Of a stretch of 36,610 nt of DNA, positions 21,485 through 32,070 are shown one piece after another. The DNA is from a virus: IMG/VR virus record IMGVR_UViG_3300017929_000014, positions 1-36,610 of that record. One strand, given 5' to 3'. Every line of letters starts with the position of its first letter. Within the stretch, counting starts at the first letter, position 1. The notes below the pieces were generated by a model. The model worked only from the letters and a program-made list of their open reading frames with translations, was not told where the DNA came from and ran no database searches. Position numbers and translations under genes: made by a program.

Positions 21485-22753
21485 ATGCCACTTTTAGCCG
21501 CAGGCATCATGGCCGGCGGGAGCATCATCAGCGGCCTGATCGGATCGAGTTCCGCCAAGAGCGCCGCCAAGACCCAGGCCGCTGCCGGCCAAGCCGTGGC
21601 CGGCTCGATCAACCAGGCGACGGGCGGCGCCATCAATGCCGGCTATGCCGGCATTACGCAGGCCAACCAGGCGCTCAATCAGGGACTCTACGGCGCAAAC
21701 CAGGCCATCGGCGCCGGAGTTCTGCAAGCCCAGGGAGCCATCTCCCCAGCCGTGCAGCAAGCGCAGCAAGCGGCGGCAGAGGGGATGCAAGGCGCGGGGC
21801 AGTATATCGCGGGCGGAGTACAGGGCGCAGGCCAGTACCTCACCGGAGCGCAACAGCAGCAGGCCGGAATCTACAACCAACTCACCGGCGGCATTCAGCC
21901 CTATCAGCAAGCCGGCACGCAGGGCGTCCAGCAGCTTCAGAATTTCATGGCCCCTGGCGGCCAGGGCTCTCAGCAATTCTCGTTCAATCCGCAGAATCTT
22001 CAGAACACCCCCGGCTACCAGTTTCAGTTGCAGCAAGGCAACCAGGCGCTCCAATCCCAGGCCGCGGCTGCAGGAATGCTGCAATCGGGCAGCAACCTCA
22101 AAGCCATCGAGAACTACTCGCAGGGTCTCGCCGGAACCACCTACAACAACGCCTACAACCAAGCGCTGCAAACCTACCAGACCAACTACGGCAACCAGCT
22201 TCAGGGTCTCTCCGCTCTGGCCAACTACGGCCAGAACGCCAACTCGCAAATGGTCAGCGCGGGCGGCAATTACGGCAACCAGGCCGGTCAAATTGCCGGA
22301 CTCGGCACCAGCGCGCAGATGCAGGGCGCGAGCCTCGGGGCCCAGACGGCTATGCAAGGCGCGGGTCTCATCGGCGGCCAGGCCATGCAGGGCGCGGGCC
22401 TGTTGTCGAATACCTCGATGCAAGGCGCGCAGATGCTCTCCAACGCTCAGCTTGGCGTCGGGAGCCAGCTTGCCAACACCGCCATGCAGGGCAACCAGTA
22501 CATCGGCAATGTCGGACTGACAGGCGCGGAAGCCGCCGGCAACGCTTATTTGGGCGCGGCCAATGCCACCTCAGCCGGACAGATTGGCTCGGGTAATGCC
22601 TGGCAGAATGCCATCGGCGGCGTGACCAACGCGGCGCAGATGTACGGGCTCAGTGCGATGCAGAACCCCTATGGTCTCTACGGTGGGGGAAGCTACAACC
22701 CTTACGCCGTTTCTGGTTACTCTCCGTACAGCGGTGAAGGGACCATGGGATAA
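21485..22753 (+). CDS. gp7-like DNA ejection protein
   Basis: 422 residues from ATG 21485, 3 bp after the preceding stop. It begins with a hydrophobic Gly/Ala/Ser segment (AGIMAGGSIISGLIGSSSAK), followed by a long Ala/Gln/Gly-rich helical part, and then a conserved core with QPYQQAGTQGVQQLQNFMAP and TPGYQFQLQQGNQALQSQAA followed by AAGMLQSGSNLKAIENYSQG, typical of phage DNA-transfer proteins of the P22 gp7 kind. A C-terminal region has repeats such as MQGAGLIGGQAMQGAGLLSN. In P22 gp7 is ejected with DNA and helps to span the envelope. The following genes are gp20-like and a giant protein in gp16 position. Confidence 0.78.
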   Translation: MPLLAAGIMAGGSIISGLIGSSSAKSAAKTQAAAGQAVAGSINQATGGAINAGYAGITQANQALNQGLYGANQAIGAGVLQAQGAISPAVQQAQQAAAEGMQGAGQYIAGGVQGAGQYLTGAQQQQAGIYNQLTGGIQPYQQAGTQGVQQLQNFMAPGGQGSQQFSFNPQNLQNTPGYQFQLQQGNQALQSQAAAAGMLQSGSNLKAIENYSQGLAGTTYNNAYNQALQTYQTNYGNQLQGLSALANYGQNANSQMVSAGGNYGNQAGQIAGLGTSAQMQGASLGAQTAMQGAGLIGGQAMQGAGLLSNTSMQGAQMLSNAQLGVGSQLANTAMQGNQYIGNVGLTGAEAAGNAYLGAANATSAGQIGSGNAWQNAIGGVTNAAQMYGLSAMQNPYGLYGGGSYNPYAVSGYSPYSGEGTMG

Positions 22754-23569: not shown

Positions 23570-23689
23570 GCGGCGGCACTCAAGCTACAACAGGCGAACA
23601 CGGCCAAAGCGCGCCAAACGGCTGCGGAATCGGCAGCGAAAATCAGTGCGGCGAAACTGCCCGAGGTCCAGGCCCAGGCCGATCAGGCG

Positions 23690-24337
23690 GTGCGCGCCAA
23701 CCAGACGGCCATCCTGGCCACAGCGACCGACGCCGACGATTACGAAGCCAAGCTGGCACAGTTGCCGCCCGGCGATGCGGCCAAGTACGGCTATCCCGAC
23801 CCTGAGGATTGGGACCCGAAGCAGACGCCGGCTCAACTGAGGCAGATGGGGCAAACGTCCGAACAGCAGGTGACCAGCGGGGCCACCGCCGCCACCAGGG
23901 CGCAAACCGCAGCCCATGAGCAGACCATGGAAGCGCAGGGCTGGCAGCGCATAGCCATCCAGAAGGCGCGCGCCGGCGCCGGCGGACTCACGCCGGTACA
24001 GACCTTGCGGGAGACGGACGCTATCAGCAAACAAGAGTTCGGGCTGCACCAGGAGCGGATCGACATCGGAACCAAGCTCACCGGCGGCTTTGCCGTCGAT
24101 AAAAACGGCAATCCAACGAAGACTCCACTGAGCCCACAGTTGCGGGGACAAATACAGGGGCGGCTTCAACTTATCAATGGGCAACTCCAGCAGGTCCAGG
24201 CGCGCAAGGCGAGCCTCATGGGCGTGACGGCGCCCCCGCAATCCGTGATCGACAACATGCCGGAGGGTCAGCCGGTGAACAGCCCCGATGGCCACACCTG
24301 GAAAAAGCAGGACGGTATCGCCTACTTCGTGCAATAA
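23690..24337 (+). CDS. C-terminal part of gp20-like ejection protein, behind the amber codon
   Basis: 215 residues from the first usable start, GTG 23690, to TAA 24337, but the frame is open from 23570, right after the amber. The sequence before the GTG (AAALKLQQANTAKARQTAAE) is coding-like, and no ribosome site precedes the GTG. The part contains ATATDADDYEAKLAQLPPGD, ATRAQTAAHEQTMEAQGWQR, QLRGQIQGRLQLINGQLQQV and a C-terminal TWKKQDGIAYFV. It is best read as the continuation of the gene at 22760. Without readthrough, suppression or sequence error it would be untranslated or made from an unusual start. Confidence 0.6.
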   Translation: MRANQTAILATATDADDYEAKLAQLPPGDAAKYGYPDPEDWDPKQTPAQLRQMGQTSEQQVTSGATAATRAQTAAHEQTMEAQGWQRIAIQKARAGAGGLTPVQTLRETDAISKQEFGLHQERIDIGTKLTGGFAVDKNGNPTKTPLSPQLRGQIQGRLQLINGQLQQVQARKASLMGVTAPPQSVIDNMPEGQPVNSPDGHTWKKQDGIAYFVQ

Positions 24338-24375
24338 GCCGTTAATCACTCCGACAATCGCCGGATATTCTCCCC

Positions 24376-27300
24376 ATGGCAGACCAAGACCTCGGTGGCG
24401 GCTGGACCGTTGCCGGCGCAACACAATCCACACCACCCTCGCCCCCGCCCGCTCAAACTCAGCCACAGGACCTGGGCGGTGGCTGGACTGTGGCAGCCGC
24501 TCCGGCGCCTCCCGTCCGCGCTCCGGCCCCCTCGGTTCCTCCCCCTCCACCCTCCGCGGTATCACCTGATACCGGGGATCAAGACCAAGACATTCAGGCC
24601 CCAGCTTCGGCCTACGCCCCTCCCACCCGTTATGGCCGCAATCAGCAGGGAAGTCTCGTCTCGAAGTGGAATGGATCGAACTGGGTAGATTTGTACAACG
24701 GCAAAAAGGTAGGAGCGCCGGCCAAAGAAGAATCGGGACCGCAGTACGGGCCAGGACAGGACTTTGCCGCGCAACCCCCCGCGGCTGGACAGCTAGGCCC
24801 CAGCCCAACGGGCGCCCCATCGCCGCAGATCCAGGAACGGGAGATCCCCCCTGCGCCACAGGCGCCCCCCATCCTCGGCATCTACGCTCGCAAGCCAGGG
24901 ACCCCGACATATGTTGGACCAGGGGGGCGAACCTACACGCCACCCCCGGAGGAAACCACCGCTCAAACCCTTCAGAAATTTCTACTTTCGCCGCCGCCCT
25001 TCGTTCAGGACGCCGTGAAAGAGTTGAACCAGATTATGGTCGGCCCCTTCCAGATCATCCAGAAGGGCATCATCGAGCCTGCCGCCGGCATGATATCGCC
25101 CGCGGGGGCAGCGATGGCAGTCACCGGCGCCGGCTTGGGCGCGGCAGCGGCATCCTCAAGCGCGCAGATGGCGGCGGCAGGCAAAGCTGCGGATGCAGCC
25201 CTCTCGACGTTCTTCACGGGCTTACAGGCGCGCCAGATCACCAAAGAAGTTCCCGAGGCTTACGACGCCTACCAGAAAGGTGACTACTGGGGCGCCCTGG
25301 GCGAGTTGGGCGCCGCCGGCACATCGGCATTTCTTGGAACGCTGGCGGGAATGCACGCCGCCGGGCAACTCAGTGATGTCGGCGCGCTGTCGGCAACGCG
25401 GCGCGCGCTCCAGGAACGGCTAAACGCCGAGGAAGCCTATCGCGCGGCAGGCGAGCGGGCCGACGCAGCCAGGGCCGCCGCAAACAGACCAAGGCTGGCA
25501 GCCCCGGCACCGGAAGTCCCCGAAACGCCACCGGTCCCTGGCGAGCCACCGGCGCCAGCCCCCCTCCCGCCAGAAGCCGCCCCCACCGCTGTACCGACGC
25601 CCCCCGAAGCCCCGCCACCGCCCGCAGCCGCCGTGGACCTCGGCGAAGGCTGGCGCACCGCCGCTCCGCCGCGGGTGCCCCAAGAACCGGCTGCCGCCGC
25701 GCCGCCCGCTGTGTCTGTACCGCCGCCGACTATGGCCGCAGCACCACCTACCGCCGCCCCCGCCGCCGGCGCAGCCCAGAAGCCGGAAGGTCGCTCTGGC
25801 GAGGATTTGATTCGCGGCTCGACCAATATCCCCCTCTCCCCGCAAGGAGTCGAGCAAGCCAACCAAATCGGGCAGCGCTTCGCCCAGAAGGGCGGTTTGG
25901 ACCTGGTGGTGAGTTCCGACATGGACCGAGCGGTTCAGACTGCGGCTCCGATTGCCCAAGCCAGCGGGGCCTATTTCAGCCACGCCACTGAAGGTTTGCA
26001 TCCCTGGTATCTGGGAGAGGTTGAGGGCCAGCCGACCGAAAAGGTCCTGGATCGCCTGAACGGCTTCATCGACGACTCGCCGGATAAACCCGTGCCCGGC
26101 CGCAGCGAGGGATCCACACAGAACGGCGAAGCGTTCAACACCTTCAAAGAGCGGGCCATCGGAACGGTTCAGGATTTGATGGACCAGTACGCTGAGGCTC
26201 AGGCAAACGACCAGCCCATCAAAATCGGAGCGGTCACGCACTACCGGGACGTGAAACTGCTCCACGCGTGGGCCGATGCGGGATTTCCGGAGAACCTGGA
26301 CAAGTTCCAACCTTCGAGCGATGAGATGACCGGCAAGGACGATCCGCCGGGCAGCGTCCAGCAAATTTCACAGGATGCCAAGGGCAAGTGGCAGATGCAG
26401 CCGGTCGATATGGCGAGCAACGCGGCGCTTCAGCCAGGAATCTACATCATCCGGCACAGCCCCACGGTCTATAACGCCGAAAACCGCAACATCCCGGCGC
26501 CGCCGGTGGGTCAAATGCCCCAGGCTCAGACCCCGGTTCGAACCCCTCCTCCGGCTCCGGCTGTGGTTCAAACGCCACAGCCTGTCACCCCAATTGGCCG
26601 CACCTTACCTCCTCCTCAGCCCCCTGGAATCGTTCCTGCGCCTCCGCAGGGCCAAGGGGCCGAAATAGCGCCCGTGCGAACGCCCTCCGGTGCCACGGTC
26701 ACACCAAATACGGTGTCAATGGAGCGCGCCGACTTCGAGCAGGAGCACACGGATCTGCCGAGGATTCTGCGCGAGGGCACACCAGCGGAGCGTGAGAAAG
26801 AAGCGGCGGAGCAGGCGCAGGAGTTGAAGGAAGTTCAGGCGGTGAACGCTCGGGAGCCTGGCTGGGTCGGCAACGTTCCAACCTCCGAAATCAAGGTAGA
26901 TGCTCCGCGCTTCCAGTTCAAGGCCAACGTGGGCCAAGGGGGTGTCGGGGAAGAGTCGCGCGACATCACCCGGTGGGACCCGGAGAAGTCGGGTGTCCTG
27001 GCCGTATGGAAAGACCCCGCGGACGGCCAGACCTACGTGGTCAATGGCCATAATCGGCTGGACCTCGCCAGGCGTCTCAATGTCCCCGAGGCCACCGCCC
27101 GCTATTTGGTTGCCAACAACGCGCAGGAAGCGCGTCTCAAGGGCGCACTCATCAACATCGCCGAAGGTAGAGGCGAGGCCACCGACGCGGCCAAGATATT
27201 CCGCGATTCTCGCATGACTCCGGAGCAGTTGCGCGCCAACGGGGTCTCGCTCACGGGCAAGGTGGCCAGCGAAGGGCTGGCGCTTTCGAATCTCTCGCAG

Positions 27301-30300
27301 CCCATCTTCGACGACGTGATTAACGGAACCCTCCCAGTCGCCAGAGGGGCGGTGATCGGCGCCGGCGTCCCCAACCATGCGGACCAGCAGGCGCTCTACG
27401 ACCTGATGCGCCAGCGCGAGCAGGGTGGCAAGCGGCTCACCAACGACCAACTCGGTGAATTGATCCGCCTCAACCAGCGGACGTCGACCGTTACGGAGCG
27501 CCCCGAGGACGAGGTCCAGACCTCCATGTTCGGCGAGGAGGAGATGACGCGCTCGCTCCTTCCGGAGAAGGCCGAGATTTCCGACTACGTTCGGAAGCAG
27601 TTGGCGGCCGAGAAGAAGCTGTTCGGAACCGTGGCTGCGGCCCCGGCTGCGGAGCGCCTCACGGAAGCCGGAAACATAGTACTGACCACCCAAAATGCCC
27701 AGATCGCGGAGCGCGCCAACCAGGGCATTCTGTTGTATGATCGACTCAGCACCTCGGTCGGTCCGATCGATTCGATTCTCGATCAGTCGGCCAAGTCGCT
27801 GGCCGGTGGAGAAAGCGCCCATGAAGTCAAACAATCCGCCTACCGCCAAGTCCGCAACCTCCTCGCGGCCCAGGTCCGTAAACTCACCGGAGTTCCGCAA
27901 GGACATGATCGAGGAGTTAAGGGACTGGGTGAACAAGGGCCACGCCAAGCTGGCCCCGGGGAATACGGTCAGCCGCTACAGTCCCGTGCAGTAGGTCCAC
28001 TTCCAGGCCAGCAATCCTTCCTGGTTCCAGAAACCGAAGCCGAGTCTCGGGCCATCGCGCAGTTGAACGAGGCACGGCTGCTGCATGACCAACTCACCGC
28101 GCAGATCCGGTCGGGGATGGCGGCGAAACCAGGGAAGCTGAAGCCCGCGAAAACCCGCGATCTGTTCGCGGAGGAAGGACCGGAGCAAGGCGGTCTCTTC
28201 GCCCGCCGCCTCAAGACCACGCCCGACATGTTCCGCCGCGTGCCCGAGGTGACGCCTGGCGGCCGCGGCTTCTGGGTCTACCAGGGGAAAGTGATCGACG
28301 CCGGCACGGACTTACATGCCACGGTGGCGCAGCGGGCGCTCCCGGGGTCGCTCTTCCAGGAAGCCGTCGGCAAATTGATGGGCGAGGGCGCCATCCGCGT
28401 GCGTGGCGAAAACCTGGAAATGCACCAGCACGCGCTCGACTCCAGCAATCTGCAGCCGGCTGTCGAGCAGGCGGTCAAAGAAGCCCAGCGCAAGCGCGCG
28501 CGAGAAATCGGAGTAGAGGTGCGGACCAGCCCGGACCACGCGGATTACATGACCGTGCCGCTCCCAGAGGTGGGAGAGTTCCTGGCAAGTCCCCGGCGGT
28601 ACATGGGGAATCGGGCAATCGCAGCCTTACAGGCGCGGCGTCGCGTCTCACCCGATCAACTCAACCTACTGCCAGGAATCACGCGATTGAAAGACGCCGG
28701 TCGCGAGGACGTGGAGCAGTACTGGGAGGCCGCGGATTCGAAGCCTACCAGTGTGGAACGTGTCCCGTGCCTCCTGGTGAACAACGCCGCTATGGACGCA
28801 GTGTTGCGGAACATGGGGCCTACCGGCCGGAACGCCACTTCGGAAGCTACCCATGCGGTGGCTCTCAACCCGGCCGAACAGCGGTATATTCTGGCCGCAG
28901 CCAAGAGCCTCCGCGGTACGCAGCCGAATGCGTTCGAGAGAGCGCTACTCAAAATCGCTCGCCAGATTCGCACTATTAACCCCGGTGGCAGACCTCTGCC
29001 TGTGATCCAGACAGGGGCATCGATCACGGGTGAGAATCTGGCGCTGAACGTCCAGGAGGAGATCGACCACAGCAGGCAACTCGCTCTACACAGGGGCTTG
29101 TATGGTTTGCCGGTCGAGGTGGTCGAGACCCCATTAGGGGCTCGGTGCGCGATGGTGTTGGCGGAACGCGCCGGCTATGTCACACTAGACCCGCAATCGG
29201 CCTTCTACGAGCATAACCGGGCTGTCATTGCTGCGGAGATTGGTGTCCGCCTGATGCGCCCCGGGAGATATCATGAGATGGGCGTGACTGCCGATGAAGC
29301 CGAAGCCCTCGGCCAACAGTACATCCGCCATCTGAAGAAGCACCCCGGCGCGGCAGCCCGCGTCATACTGGAGCAAATCGATGCCACGATCAGGCAGAAT
29401 CAACTTCTTTCTCTCTCCGAACGCAATCTCGCTCTGGAAGGGGGAGAGCCACTTCACCCTGAAAAGGCCATCGGACCCCCAGGAGTTGGAGGCGCTGTTT
29501 CGCCGACTTATCCAGGAGGACGGCCTGGAGGGCGAGGAGTTGGAGAGCGCGGTCCAGGAGATGATGAAGAAGGCGGCGGCGCTCCCTCAGCAGCAAGATC
29601 CGGGTACCAGCCGCAGCCCCTTGCCGCCCGAGCCCCCAAAGTAGGCGGAGGCGAATCCCGCCCGGTCCGTGAGTTTCTGGGTGAAGAGGCCGGGACCTCG
29701 CGCGTCGGGGAAATTCTGAAGGCCGACATCAAGGAGGCGCTGGCTCTCAAATCCAAGCGGGACGCCGCTATCCAAGTCCTCGAAGAGGCCAAAGCGGACC
29801 CGGCGGTCAAGGACCTGGCCGACCGGCTGGCATCGGCCTACCTGGCCGAACGGAACCTCTGGGCCACGCGGGTCAACCAAGTTATAGGCCGTCTGCGCAA
29901 ACTGGTGCCGAGTCCTGTGGACCAGGAAGGCATCGCCATCATGCGGGATATGTACGGCTGTCCAGGTGAACTGGAGCAGTGGGCTGCGGGCACGCATCCG
30001 AACCTCGCCACTCTTGATCCCGAGAAGCGCGCCGCGTTCACGCGGAACATCGACCGTCTGGGGCCGGCCATCGAACGAGCGCAGAATCCGACTCCGGAGA
30101 TGATCCAGGCCGACCAGGTGCTGACCAAGATGGCGCGGGCCACCATGATGGAAGGTCAGATGCGCGGGATTATCGAGCGCGGCCTGACTCCCGAGCGGTA
30201 CTTCACTCACCTTCTCTGGCCCAAAGGCGAAGGGGAAGCTCCCAAGCCCGCGTCACAGCGCATAGGCCAGATGCTGGGTGGCAAGATCAGCCGCTACTTC

Positions 30301-32070
30301 GCCTTCGCGGAGCACCGCTCCTACCCGACGATCTTCGACGCCATCGCCGACGGCGTGCGGCCGAAGACCCTGAACGCTTTCGACGCCGCCACGATTCACG
30401 GGGACAAGTTCGCCACCGCGCGCGCGACGCGCATCCTCCAGGATGAGCTGGAGGAAAACCACATGGGAGTGTGGGGCGCGCCGCGAGCGCCTGGCATCCC
30501 GGAGAACTGGGTCGAGTTGGCGCCGCACGCCCGGCTCTTCCGTAACGAGATCCCGGTCACGGACCAGGAGGGAAAGCAGACCTTTGCGCTGCAAACCTTC
30601 TGGACGCCCCAAGTCGTGTCGGACGCTTTGCGACCGATCACCGACCCGGACTACATGCGCGTGATAAAAGGCTTCGGAAACCTGCGTGCCCGCCAGGCGC
30701 TTCTCAAGCAGGCGACGCTGAGCCTTTCACTGTTTCACGCGCGCGCCCTCAATTTGATGGCGTTCTACAATCTGGGACCGGTGGGAATCACGAAGGGGCT
30801 GCTCTGGTTTAAGCGCCTGGGAACCAGCATGGACAATCCCGACTTCGAGCGCGCCGAGCGCCAGTTCGTAATGGACGGCGGAACCACGACGATGATGGGC
30901 AAGAGCGTCGAGGCATACAAGTCGCTGGAGCCGGGCTCCATTCCCACGTGGACCGACATCTGGAGGAGGGTGCCGGTGATCCGTGAAATGGATGCGGCGG
31001 CCAATACGGTCACCCGCGGCACCTTTGACATTCTGCAACGCTTTTGGAAGGTAACCGACTACCAGATCAAGCGGACGGCCTGGATGGCGAAGCATCCCGG
31101 CGCCAGCCAGAGCGAATTATCGAAAGCCGGCGAGAGCATCGCCAAGGAAATCAACGCGGTCTACGGCGGCCTGAACTGGGAAAAACTCGGAGCGAATCAC
31201 GCCACCGTGGAGGCGCTGCGCGCGATCATGTTGGCTCCCGACTGGACCATCTCCAACATCTTCAATGTGAAGTACGCTCTCGAAGGGACGGTGCCGGCCG
31301 GCCAGACCACCGTGGGCATGAAGGCACTCGGCGCTGGCGGACCGATGGGCACCGGCGCCCCTGAGTTCACCTCGGCCGGCAAACGCGAGTGGACCCCGGC
31401 CGGGAAGGCGGCTCGCCTTTTCTGGATGCGCGCCGCGGCCTACATCGTCATCGGCTCGGAGTTGGCAAGCTTTGCCCTGACCCGCCGCTGGTCGAAACGG
31501 CCTACGCGGGTGCTCGTCGGAACGGACAAGGACGGCCGGGACGTTTACGAGAACTGGTTCGCCGCCGGAGCGCCCCAGGACGTCCAGTCCTTCATCGACA
31601 ATTCCGCTCGTTACGGCGCTCTGGGCGGGGCGGTGCGAACCATGACGAACAAGGCGGCACCGCTTTTCCGCACCGGCCTCGAAGCCGCCAAGAACGAAGA
31701 CTTCCTGGGGCGCCCGATCGTGCCCAGGGGCATGAACTTCTGGGCCGCCACGGCGCGCGGCGGAATCCACGCCGCCAAGGGCCTGGCGCCGATTCCCTAC
31801 AGCTTCCAGAACGCCTGGAACATGCTGGCTGGGCCGGACAGGGATCGCTACAAGCCTGGAGAGGTTGCGGCTACGATACTGACCGGGACCCCGCCGATCC
31901 ACGTTCGGCCGCAACCGCCGGAGCGGCCGAAGCTCTCGACATGGGAGCAGATCAAACAGAATCGGGTCTACCAGAAGAAACCCGCCGCACTCCCGCCCCA
32001 ACTCCGCCAGGCATTCCCCGCCCCTCCCCGTCTTCCTAAACTTCCCGGACAGCAGCAGCGCACGCGGTAA
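24376..32070 (+). CDS. giant polyvalent protein (2564 residues) in gp16 position
   Basis: One open frame from ATG 24376. Visible parts in order: Pro-rich start with DLGGGWTV at residues 5-12 and 32-39; Ala/Gly-rich membrane-type region about 232-335; third DLGEGW at 420-425; histidine-phosphatase-like domain about 476-705; ParB-like domain about 830-1130 with VNGHNRLDLARR (889-900); a segment with VTPGGRGFWVYQGK; a domain of unknown type with QEEIDHSRQ at 1560-1568; and a C-terminal region about 1755-2564 with RYFTHLLWP and APDWTISNIFNVKYA, as seen in large polyvalent proteins. Such proteins are injected with DNA and protect or establish it. It follows gp7- and gp20-like genes, like P22 gp16, but is about four times longer. 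Codon use breaks twice inside (see nested ORFs). Confidence 0.8.
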   Translation: MADQDLGGGWTVAGATQSTPPSPPPAQTQPQDLGGGWTVAAAPAPPVRAPAPSVPPPPPSAVSPDTGDQDQDIQAPASAYAPPTRYGRNQQGSLVSKWNGSNWVDLYNGKKVGAPAKEESGPQYGPGQDFAAQPPAAGQLGPSPTGAPSPQIQEREIPPAPQAPPILGIYARKPGTPTYVGPGGRTYTPPPEETTAQTLQKFLLSPPPFVQDAVKELNQIMVGPFQIIQKGIIEPAAGMISPAGAAMAVTGAGLGAAAASSSAQMAAAGKAADAALSTFFTGLQARQITKEVPEAYDAYQKGDYWGALGELGAAGTSAFLGTLAGMHAAGQLSDVGALSATRRALQERLNAEEAYRAAGERADAARAAANRPRLAAPAPEVPETPPVPGEPPAPAPLPPEAAPTAVPTPPEAPPPPAAAVDLGEGWRTAAPPRVPQEPAAAAPPAVSVPPPTMAAAPPTAAPAAGAAQKPEGRSGEDLIRGSTNIPLSPQGVEQANQIGQRFAQKGGLDLVVSSDMDRAVQTAAPIAQASGAYFSHATEGLHPWYLGEVEGQPTEKVLDRLNGFIDDSPDKPVPGRSEGSTQNGEAFNTFKERAIGTVQDLMDQYAEAQANDQPIKIGAVTHYRDVKLLHAWADAGFPENLDKFQPSSDEMTGKDDPPGSVQQISQDAKGKWQMQPVDMASNAALQPGIYIIRHSPTVYNAENRNIPAPPVGQMPQAQTPVRTPPPAPAVVQTPQPVTPIGRTLPPPQPPGIVPAPPQGQGAEIAPVRTPSGATVTPNTVSMERADFEQEHTDLPRILREGTPAEREKEAAEQAQELKEVQAVNAREPGWVGNVPTSEIKVDAPRFQFKANVGQGGVGEESRDITRWDPEKSGVLAVWKDPADGQTYVVNGHNRLDLARRLNVPEATARYLVANNAQEARLKGALINIAEGRGEATDAAKIFRDSRMTPEQLRANGVSLTGKVASEGLALSNLSQPIFDDVINGTLPVARGAVIGAGVPNHADQQALYDLMRQREQGGKRLTNDQLGELIRLNQRTSTVTERPEDEVQTSMFGEEEMTRSLLPEKAEISDYVRKQLAAEKKLFGTVAAAPAAERLTEAGNIVLTTQNAQIAERANQGILLYDRLSTSVGPIDSILDQSAKSLAGGESAHEVKQSAYRQVRNLLAAQVRKLTGVPQGHDRGVKGLGEQGPRQAGPGEYGQPLQSRAVGPLPGQQSFLVPETEAESRAIAQLNEARLLHDQLTAQIRSGMAAKPGKLKPAKTRDLFAEEGPEQGGLFARRLKTTPDMFRRVPEVTPGGRGFWVYQGKVIDAGTDLHATVAQRALPGSLFQEAVGKLMGEGAIRVRGENLEMHQHALDSSNLQPAVEQAVKEAQRKRAREIGVEVRTSPDHADYMTVPLPEVGEFLASPRRYMGNRAIAALQARRRVSPDQLNLLPGITRLKDAGREDVEQYWEAADSKPTSVERVPCLLVNNAAMDAVLRNMGPTGRNATSEATHAVALNPAEQRYILAAAKSLRGTQPNAFERALLKIARQIRTINPGGRPLPVIQTGASITGENLALNVQEEIDHSRQLALHRGLYGLPVEVVETPLGARCAMVLAERAGYVTLDPQSAFYEHNRAVIAAEIGVRLMRPGRYHEMGVTADEAEALGQQYIRHLKKHPGAAARVILEQIDATIRQNQLLSLSERNLALEGGEPLHPEKAIGPPGVGGAVSPTYPGGRPGGRGVGERGPGDDEEGGGAPSAARSGYQPQPLAARAPKVGGGESRPVREFLGEEAGTSRVGEILKADIKEALALKSKRDAAIQVLEEAKADPAVKDLADRLASAYLAERNLWATRVNQVIGRLRKLVPSPVDQEGIAIMRDMYGCPGELEQWAAGTHPNLATLDPEKRAAFTRNIDRLGPAIERAQNPTPEMIQADQVLTKMARATMMEGQMRGIIERGLTPERYFTHLLWPKGEGEAPKPASQRIGQMLGGKISRYFAFAEHRSYPTIFDAIADGVRPKTLNAFDAATIHGDKFATARATRILQDELEENHMGVWGAPRAPGIPENWVELAPHARLFRNEIPVTDQEGKQTFALQTFWTPQVVSDALRPITDPDYMRVIKGFGNLRARQALLKQATLSLSLFHARALNLMAFYNLGPVGITKGLLWFKRLGTSMDNPDFERAERQFVMDGGTTTMMGKSVEAYKSLEPGSIPTWTDIWRRVPVIREMDAAANTVTRGTFDILQRFWKVTDYQIKRTAWMAKHPGASQSELSKAGESIAKEINAVYGGLNWEKLGANHATVEALRAIMLAPDWTISNIFNVKYALEGTVPAGQTTVGMKALGAGGPMGTGAPEFTSAGKREWTPAGKAARLFWMRAAAYIVIGSELASFALTRRWSKRPTRVLVGTDKDGRDVYENWFAAGAPQDVQSFIDNSARYGALGGAVRTMTNKAAPLFRTGLEAAKNEDFLGRPIVPRGMNFWAATARGGIHAAKGLAPIPYSFQNAWNMLAGPDRDRYKPGEVAATILTGTPPIHVRPQPPERPKLSTWEQIKQNRVYQKKPAALPPQLRQAFPAPPRLPKLPGQQQRTR
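27821..27994 (+). CDS. nested 57-residue ORF within giant gene (+1 frame)
   Basis: ATG 27821 to TAG 27992-27994, with GGTGGAG upstream. The product ends SPEFRKDMIEELRDWVNKGH, then AKLAPGNTVSRYSPVQ, a convincing helical protein segment. In this frame 48 of 57 codons end in G or C. From about 27880 on, the giant frame has only about 15 of 39 codons ending in G or C, against roughly 80 percent or more elsewhere, and encodes a Gly/Pro/Gln-rich linker. So the +1 frame is the constrained one here. It may be a real nested gene, a remnant of a separate gene, or the product of a frameshift. Confidence 0.45.
   Translation: MKSNNPPTAKSATSSRPRSVNSPEFRKDMIEELRDWVNKGHAKLAPGNTVSRYSPVQ
29381..29644 (+). CDS. 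nested 87-residue ORF within giant gene (+1 frame)
   Basis: ATG 29381 to TAG 29642-29644, with GGAG 7 bases upstream. The product is soluble and acidic-helical: SLWKGESHFTLKRPSDPQEL followed by EALFRRLIQEDGLEGEELES and AVQEMMKKAAALPQQ. In this frame 70 of 87 codons end in G or C. The overlapping giant frame has about 26 of 60 over 29462-29641 and encodes a Gly/Pro-rich linker. As with the ORF at 27821, the codon signature favours this frame. It lies between the EEIDH-containing region and the C-terminal domain of the giant protein. The function is unknown. Confidence 0.5.
   Translation: MPRSGRINFFLSPNAISLWKGESHFTLKRPSDPQELEALFRRLIQEDGLEGEELESAVQEMMKKAAALPQQQDPGTSRSPLPPEPPK

Follow-up and report, generated by a model that had tools for sequence, protein, structure and literature searches.

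Small genes probably nested in the domain linkers of a giant polyvalent phage protein

Can the linkers of a giant viral protein harbour small genes in a second reading frame, and were such genes born within the large frame or engulfed by it? The question is raised by a 36,610-nt (36.6-kb) virus record (IMGVR_UViG_3300017929_000014, positions 1-36,610), referred to here as the window, in which an uninterrupted plus-strand open reading frame (ORF) of 2564 amino acids (24376..32070) appears to carry small ORFs in the +1 frame of its Gly/Pro-rich linkers. According to the original prediction, the giant protein may have arisen by loss of stop codons in an operon in which domain genes alternated with small genes, two of which may still be expressed.

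The giant protein and its domains

Several unrelated domains are joined in the one chain, all encoded on the plus strand. A histidine phosphatase domain (His_Phos_1, Pfam PF00300, E 5e-21; 25804..26310, residues 477-645) is followed by a ParB domain (26857..27864, residues 824-1142) recognised by phrog_21 (E 5e-64, the match covering the C-terminal part of phrog_21) as well as by profile A3 and relatives, across which the domain has invariant columns; its DdrB-like subfamily label is taken from a published description (PMC5512222) and not from a dedicated profile. Further downstream, a conserved domain with an EExDH motif (28690..29401; alignment A4 with L022/L025, relatives L107-L114) may be peptidase-like, although a PDB profile search with it gave no match. 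Identification as the zincin-like metallopeptidase (MPTase) of polyvalent proteins was rejected, the motif being EExDH with HExxH absent and a PDB match lacking. The C-terminal conserved region (29704..31929) is matched by profile in seven distinct relatives, each time in a ParB-containing ORF, while its LPD38 match is weak and lies under the Pfam cut-off.

Genes for a DNA-ejection protein (phrog_598, 21485-22753), head closure and the major head protein lie upstream, placing the giant gene among virion and ejection genes. Polyvalent proteins with DdrB-like ParB domains have been described (Iyer et al., 2017, PMC5512222), and the present protein resembles them in its multi-domain build, its DdrB-like ParB domain and its position beside virion genes; by analogy, it is probably packaged and ejected. 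Unlike that description, the giant protein here has nested +1 genes between its domains. A near-identical contig (L001) differs by four SNPs in 17.8 kb, with no indels, and many distant relatives have the same arrangement, which therefore does not reflect a sequencing or indel artefact.

Codon usage and conservation of the nested frames

The first small frame, ORF1 (27821..27994, plus strand, 57 residues), runs from an ATG at 27821 to a TAG at 27994, starting within the final helix of the ParB domain and continuing into the linker. A GGAG Shine-Dalgarno (SD)-like site (27808..27811) lies 9 nt ahead of the ATG with a duplex energy of -7.1; the ORF1-family median is -7.3 against a background of -3.2 (P 2.6e-6). 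The encoded protein has an S/P/K-rich N-terminus and one C-terminal helix, structure prediction giving a disordered start and then a single helix at residues 23-38. The second frame, ORF2 (29381..29644, plus strand, 87 residues; ATG at 29381, TAG at 29644), starts at the end of the EExDH domain, with a GGAG site (29370..29373) 7 nt ahead whose duplex energy (-5.6) is weaker than most; two helices are predicted at low confidence (pLDDT 59). The ATGs, GGAG sites, TAG ends and placement between recognisable domains noted in the original prediction are confirmed.

The composition counts that had first drawn attention to these frames are likewise exact: 15 of 39 and 26 of 60-61 giant-frame codons end in G or C in the two stretches, compared with 48 of 57 in ORF1 and 70 of 87 in ORF2. 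By itself, a high +1 GC3 is weak evidence, because it equals the GC1 of the giant frame, which is high in any Gly/Pro/Ala linker; other Pro-rich linkers (~24440, 25400-25750 and 26540) have it too. GC3 alone was set aside in favour of codon-phase likelihood and conservation. The low GC3 of the giant frame itself is specific, with sub-windows that low only at 27.8-27.9 kb and 29.3-29.5 kb. In a three-phase codon model trained on 21 other genes of the window and scored in 50-codon windows, +1 is the best frame by 21 nats over ORF1 and by 23 nats over ORF2, and elsewhere in the giant ORF its lead is at most about 3 nats. A +1 lead of more than 5 nats was seen in 2 of 227 windows of the training genes, a calibration that is optimistic, the same genes having served for both training and scoring.

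About 20 distinct relatives have a +1 ORF of ~50-75 residues in the same position after the DdrB-like ParB domain. A close group shares the motif NSPEFR..M..EL....G..KLA.GN, and more distant members share an S/P/K-rich start, 'LSPE' and a helix. Past the ParB domain, differences within the close group fall on ORF1 codon positions 1/2/3 at.33/.30/.46, while in the upstream ParB region of the same group the giant third position is the most variable (.53). In the ungapped core, amino-acid identity is.61 for ORF1 versus.42 for the giant frame, and simulated evolution constrained only by the giant frame seldom attains the observed +1 similarity (P.0002-.003 per pair, BLOSUM score). A leave-clade-out HMM recognises the family across clades and finds the ORF1 of the window at E 2.5e-9, a value to which the homologous ParB end, overlapped by part of ORF1, may add signal through the other frame. 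A refuting finding named in the original prediction, homologues with the linker protein but without the +1 frame, is the reverse of what was seen for ORF1. In several neighbouring lineages (L032, L035, L095) the family is missing or cannot be recognised; a few relatives (L057, L049, L076) have no good SD site at the chosen start, which was selected by eye in some relatives, and several have a +1 stop a few codons 5' of the small-ORF start.

For ORF2, relatives were found by using the preceding domain as a separate query, which gave eight loci plus the near-identical contig (L109, L111 and L114 lie on the same contigs as L022, L025 and L032, respectively). A small ORF occurs at the domain end in 8/8 loci, nested in the +1 frame in seven and overlapping the large-frame stop in L114. 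The counterparts in L022, L025, L112 and L113 form a clear family (AEDNL..CLDALD.KGE.GL..EL.RIHP), and those of L022 and L025 differ at 5/6/15 sites in +1 positions 1/2/3. Apart from the near-identical contig, no sequence significantly matches the ORF2 of the window, whose best counterpart alignment reaches 29% identity; this ORF2 is rated as a real gene on codon usage and position, its own sequence being too divergent to pair.

Maintenance of the large frame was assessed by synonymous resampling of the small genes, in which the giant frame stayed open with a probability of.04-.58 at 17 ORF1 junctions and.02-.33 at eight ORF2 junctions. In the natural sequences every one of these junctions is open, and 21 of 22 ORF1 loci have an open giant frame across the whole small gene; products of the resampling probabilities are not P values, because the loci share ancestry and fusion was itself the basis for choosing the 17 ORF1 loci. 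Both frames are thus open throughout the overlap in relatives, with purifying selection on the +1 frame among the relatives of ORF1 and ORF2. Comparison of the relatives shows both frames to be under selection: the +1 amino acids are kept (in ORF1 and in the relatives of ORF2) with normal codon usage, and stops are kept out of the giant frame more than expected.

Three other readings can be weighed against these data. Gly/Pro/Ala linkers of a GC-rich giant might simply yield a GC3-rich, open +1 frame in which no small gene exists; long +1 ORFs are common and other Pro-rich linkers share the high +1 GC3, but the codon model gives no strong +1 lead in those linkers, the +1 amino acids are better conserved than those of the giant frame, and substitutions fall on +1 third positions, so that such a composition artefact is largely refuted, for ORF1 and for the ORF2 family by +1 conservation exceeding that of the giant frame, and the least credible of the three. 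A programmed frameshift, whereby giant-frame ribosomes would shift to +1 and end at the TAG, yielding ParB with an alternative C-terminus in place of a free small protein, would fit small frames that start exactly at domain ends and are +1 in every case. Conserved ATG/GTG starts with SD sites, together with the +1 stops just 5' of the start in several relatives, make this very improbable. Hardly better placed is the notion that the giant frame over the linkers is accidental and that each domain is really a separate protein: small genes with high GC3 do leave the frame behind them stop-poor, but the giant frame is open far oftener than synonymous resampling predicts, and every relative found has the distal domain in the same ORF. 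On sequence comparison, it is therefore highly probable that ORF1 and ORF2 are nested, selected, dual-coding genes within the +1 frame of the giant gene. That the small ORFs behave as real, selected genes is borne out by +1 conservation, third-position substitution bias, SD sites and codon usage.

Recurrence among relatives and comparison with known systems

Profile scans with the ParB domain matched 80 loci in viruses and five in bacterial genomes, four of the five being from Acidobacteriota assemblies, with some contigs recurring. The presence of ParB relatives (L101, L102, L103) in Acidobacteriota assemblies suggests acidobacterial hosts for the phage group, and a draw of 396 genomes from the phylum of an acidobacterial host genome added two weak matches beyond the known one. 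Among alternative-frame ORFs (n=650 in 42 loci), similarity in the alternative frame exceeded that in the giant frame in 28 +1 pairs versus one +2 pair, almost all belonging to ORF1, ORF2 or a third family in L057/L103. Similarly, when 39 related giant ORFs were scanned for codon phase, 33 +1 segments and no +2 segments emerged, with no +1 segments in the marine/cyanophage-type giants scanned. Part of this +1/+2 asymmetry is expected, because the frame behind a +1 gene is stop-poor (open in 56% of 60-codon windows of this genome, against 25% for the other frame). Many of the extra +1 segments start with strong SD sites, the start there having been chosen for its SD.

Other linkers hold further nested +1 ORFs (L023:5177-5377, L033:5129-5320, L036:5729-5926, L103:8024-8215, L112:4349-4648, L108:4241-4468 and L024:7787-8077), several with a strong GGAGG and all unrelated in sequence to ORF1 and ORF2. 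The third conserved nested +1 family, with the start MP[FY]KSEAQ, is found at L057:4790-4999 and L103:5798-5980. Neither Pfam nor PHROGs gave a match to the small proteins that passed the cut-offs, none of their PDB profile matches was convincing, and for ORF1, ORF2 and other nested ORFs no convincing homologues were found in named phages. A PDB match to a p66-alpha helix (E 0.0014) was read as generic helix similarity. The FlgM anti-sigma factor (PF04316) was rejected at E 0.11-0.17 and 12.6-13.1 bits against a cut-off of 25, the weak helix similarity being seen in two members and absent in the others. Searches did not confirm that the nested ORFs of L033 and of L057/L103 are members of stand-alone families widespread in phages.

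Nested genes of tailed phages, such as Rz/Rz1, lie on the same strand as their host gene, in a different frame and with their own start; most are known as one-off curiosities, and they are often dropped by annotation pipelines. ORF1 and ORF2 resemble Rz/Rz1 in being nested same-strand genes in another frame with their own predicted starts. The small proteins described here, for which no relation to Rz/Rz1 in sequence or function was found, differ in their soluble, helical appearance and in being encoded within virion-type genes. The nearest conceptual precedent is the polymerase/surface overlap of hepatitis B virus, for which a published codon-usage analysis put forward a modular origin, gene S having at one time stood between two genes for parts of the polymerase (PMC8227390). 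In both cases, the spacer separating two domains of a large protein contains a shorter nested gene. The phage case works like this precedent without being a member of it, since the viruses are unrelated and the phage arrangement recurs at several junctions, in many phages and with different small genes. Overprinting, nested genes and polyvalent proteins are already well known, and it is their repeated combination that appears to be new: a limited search of the open-licence literature found no description of nested small genes in polyvalent-protein linkers, and the words 'overlap', 'linker' and 'small ORF' are absent from the main text of PMC5512222.

A class of giant phage proteins in which nested genes recur, always in one relative frame and in many cases where a domain ends, supplies numerous natural replicates for studying how dual-coding DNA originates (read-through fusion versus de novo birth) and likewise how multi-domain proteins get built. 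It also adds a set of conserved small phage proteins absent from databases.

Origin, expression and possible role

A read-through fusion would begin with an operon in which a domain gene, a small overlapping gene and another domain gene followed one another; the stop of the upstream frame would then be lost, so that this frame continued across the small gene and on into the following domain. Each of the two positions has an unfused counterpart in a relative, which makes such a fusion plausible: in L045 the ParB gene terminates inside the small gene, and in L114 the upstream gene terminates 8 nt into it. Furthermore, the small frame is the one with genome-like codon usage and is therefore the older by a published criterion (PMC8227390), and the restriction of all cases to +1 fits as well, the frame one step back from a real GC-rich gene being naturally stop-poor. 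The ParB and small ORF pair also occurs in different large proteins, including a portal protein (L045/L053). The ORF1 label is clustered on the ParB tree (6 changes versus 15.3 when shuffled), a tree that is unrooted.

The loss-of-stop origin put forward in the original prediction is upheld only in part. The junctions of L045 and L114 and the codon usage of the small frames favour it, but the tree cannot be rooted to order the fused and separate states, and of the separate pieces sought among relatives the C-terminal region was not found as a gene of its own, lying in the same ORF as ParB in seven distinct relatives. De novo overprinting, in which the fused giant is ancestral and the small genes were born in permissive linkers, competes with this origin only and leaves the reality of the small genes untouched. 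In its favour, nested viral genes usually originate by overprinting, most frames born de novo within internal overlaps are +1 (PMC8227390), and the small families have no recognisable outside homologues. Against it stand the unfused junctions and a codon usage that is genome-like in the small frame and atypical in the giant frame, the reverse of what a young nested gene would be expected to display, an argument of limited reach as old de novo genes may adapt their codon usage. Overprinting is thus a real contender, with a little over a third of our confidence, and we lean towards read-through fusion over de novo birth; that the arrangement arose by such fusion is the somewhat likelier account. 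The broader proposition, that the giant ejected proteins of a large uncultured, probably acidobacterial, phage group are whole-operon read-through fusions whose small partner genes are still expressed, is doubtful at present; if true, it would constitute a repeated route, modular as in hepatitis B virus, to giant proteins and dual-coding DNA.

The small proteins would be translated from the mRNA of the giant by internal initiation, for which the GGAG-ATG sites are the putative entry points. As a best guess, they may act as helpers or inhibitors of the preceding domain: each small helical protein would pair, as inhibitor, chaperone or packaging adaptor, with the domain preceding its gene and be made in the producer cell along with an enzyme destined to act after ejection in the next cell. 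This partner role is speculative and somewhat improbable as it stands, and linkage to a domain is no proof of partnership because the overlap forces the two to travel together. If the small proteins do inhibit or chaperone ejected enzymes, they would give a clue to the way in which phages manage these enzymes until release.

Apart from the giant ORFs, L045:6962-7162 and L053:6793-6963 place ParB and a small overlapping ORF at the C-terminus of a portal protein and not in a giant ejection-type protein. In Dunaliella viridis virus SI2 (L008:7260-7409), an unannotated ORF of 49 residues and different sequence fills the space that divides a separate ParB gene from its neighbour. At L102:1083-1261, the ParB frame is shifted near an ambiguous base, probably by an assembly error. 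Long ORFs are also present on the minus strand opposite the giant gene (window 23585-24943 and 26716-27948), such antisense ORFs being common in GC-rich DNA.
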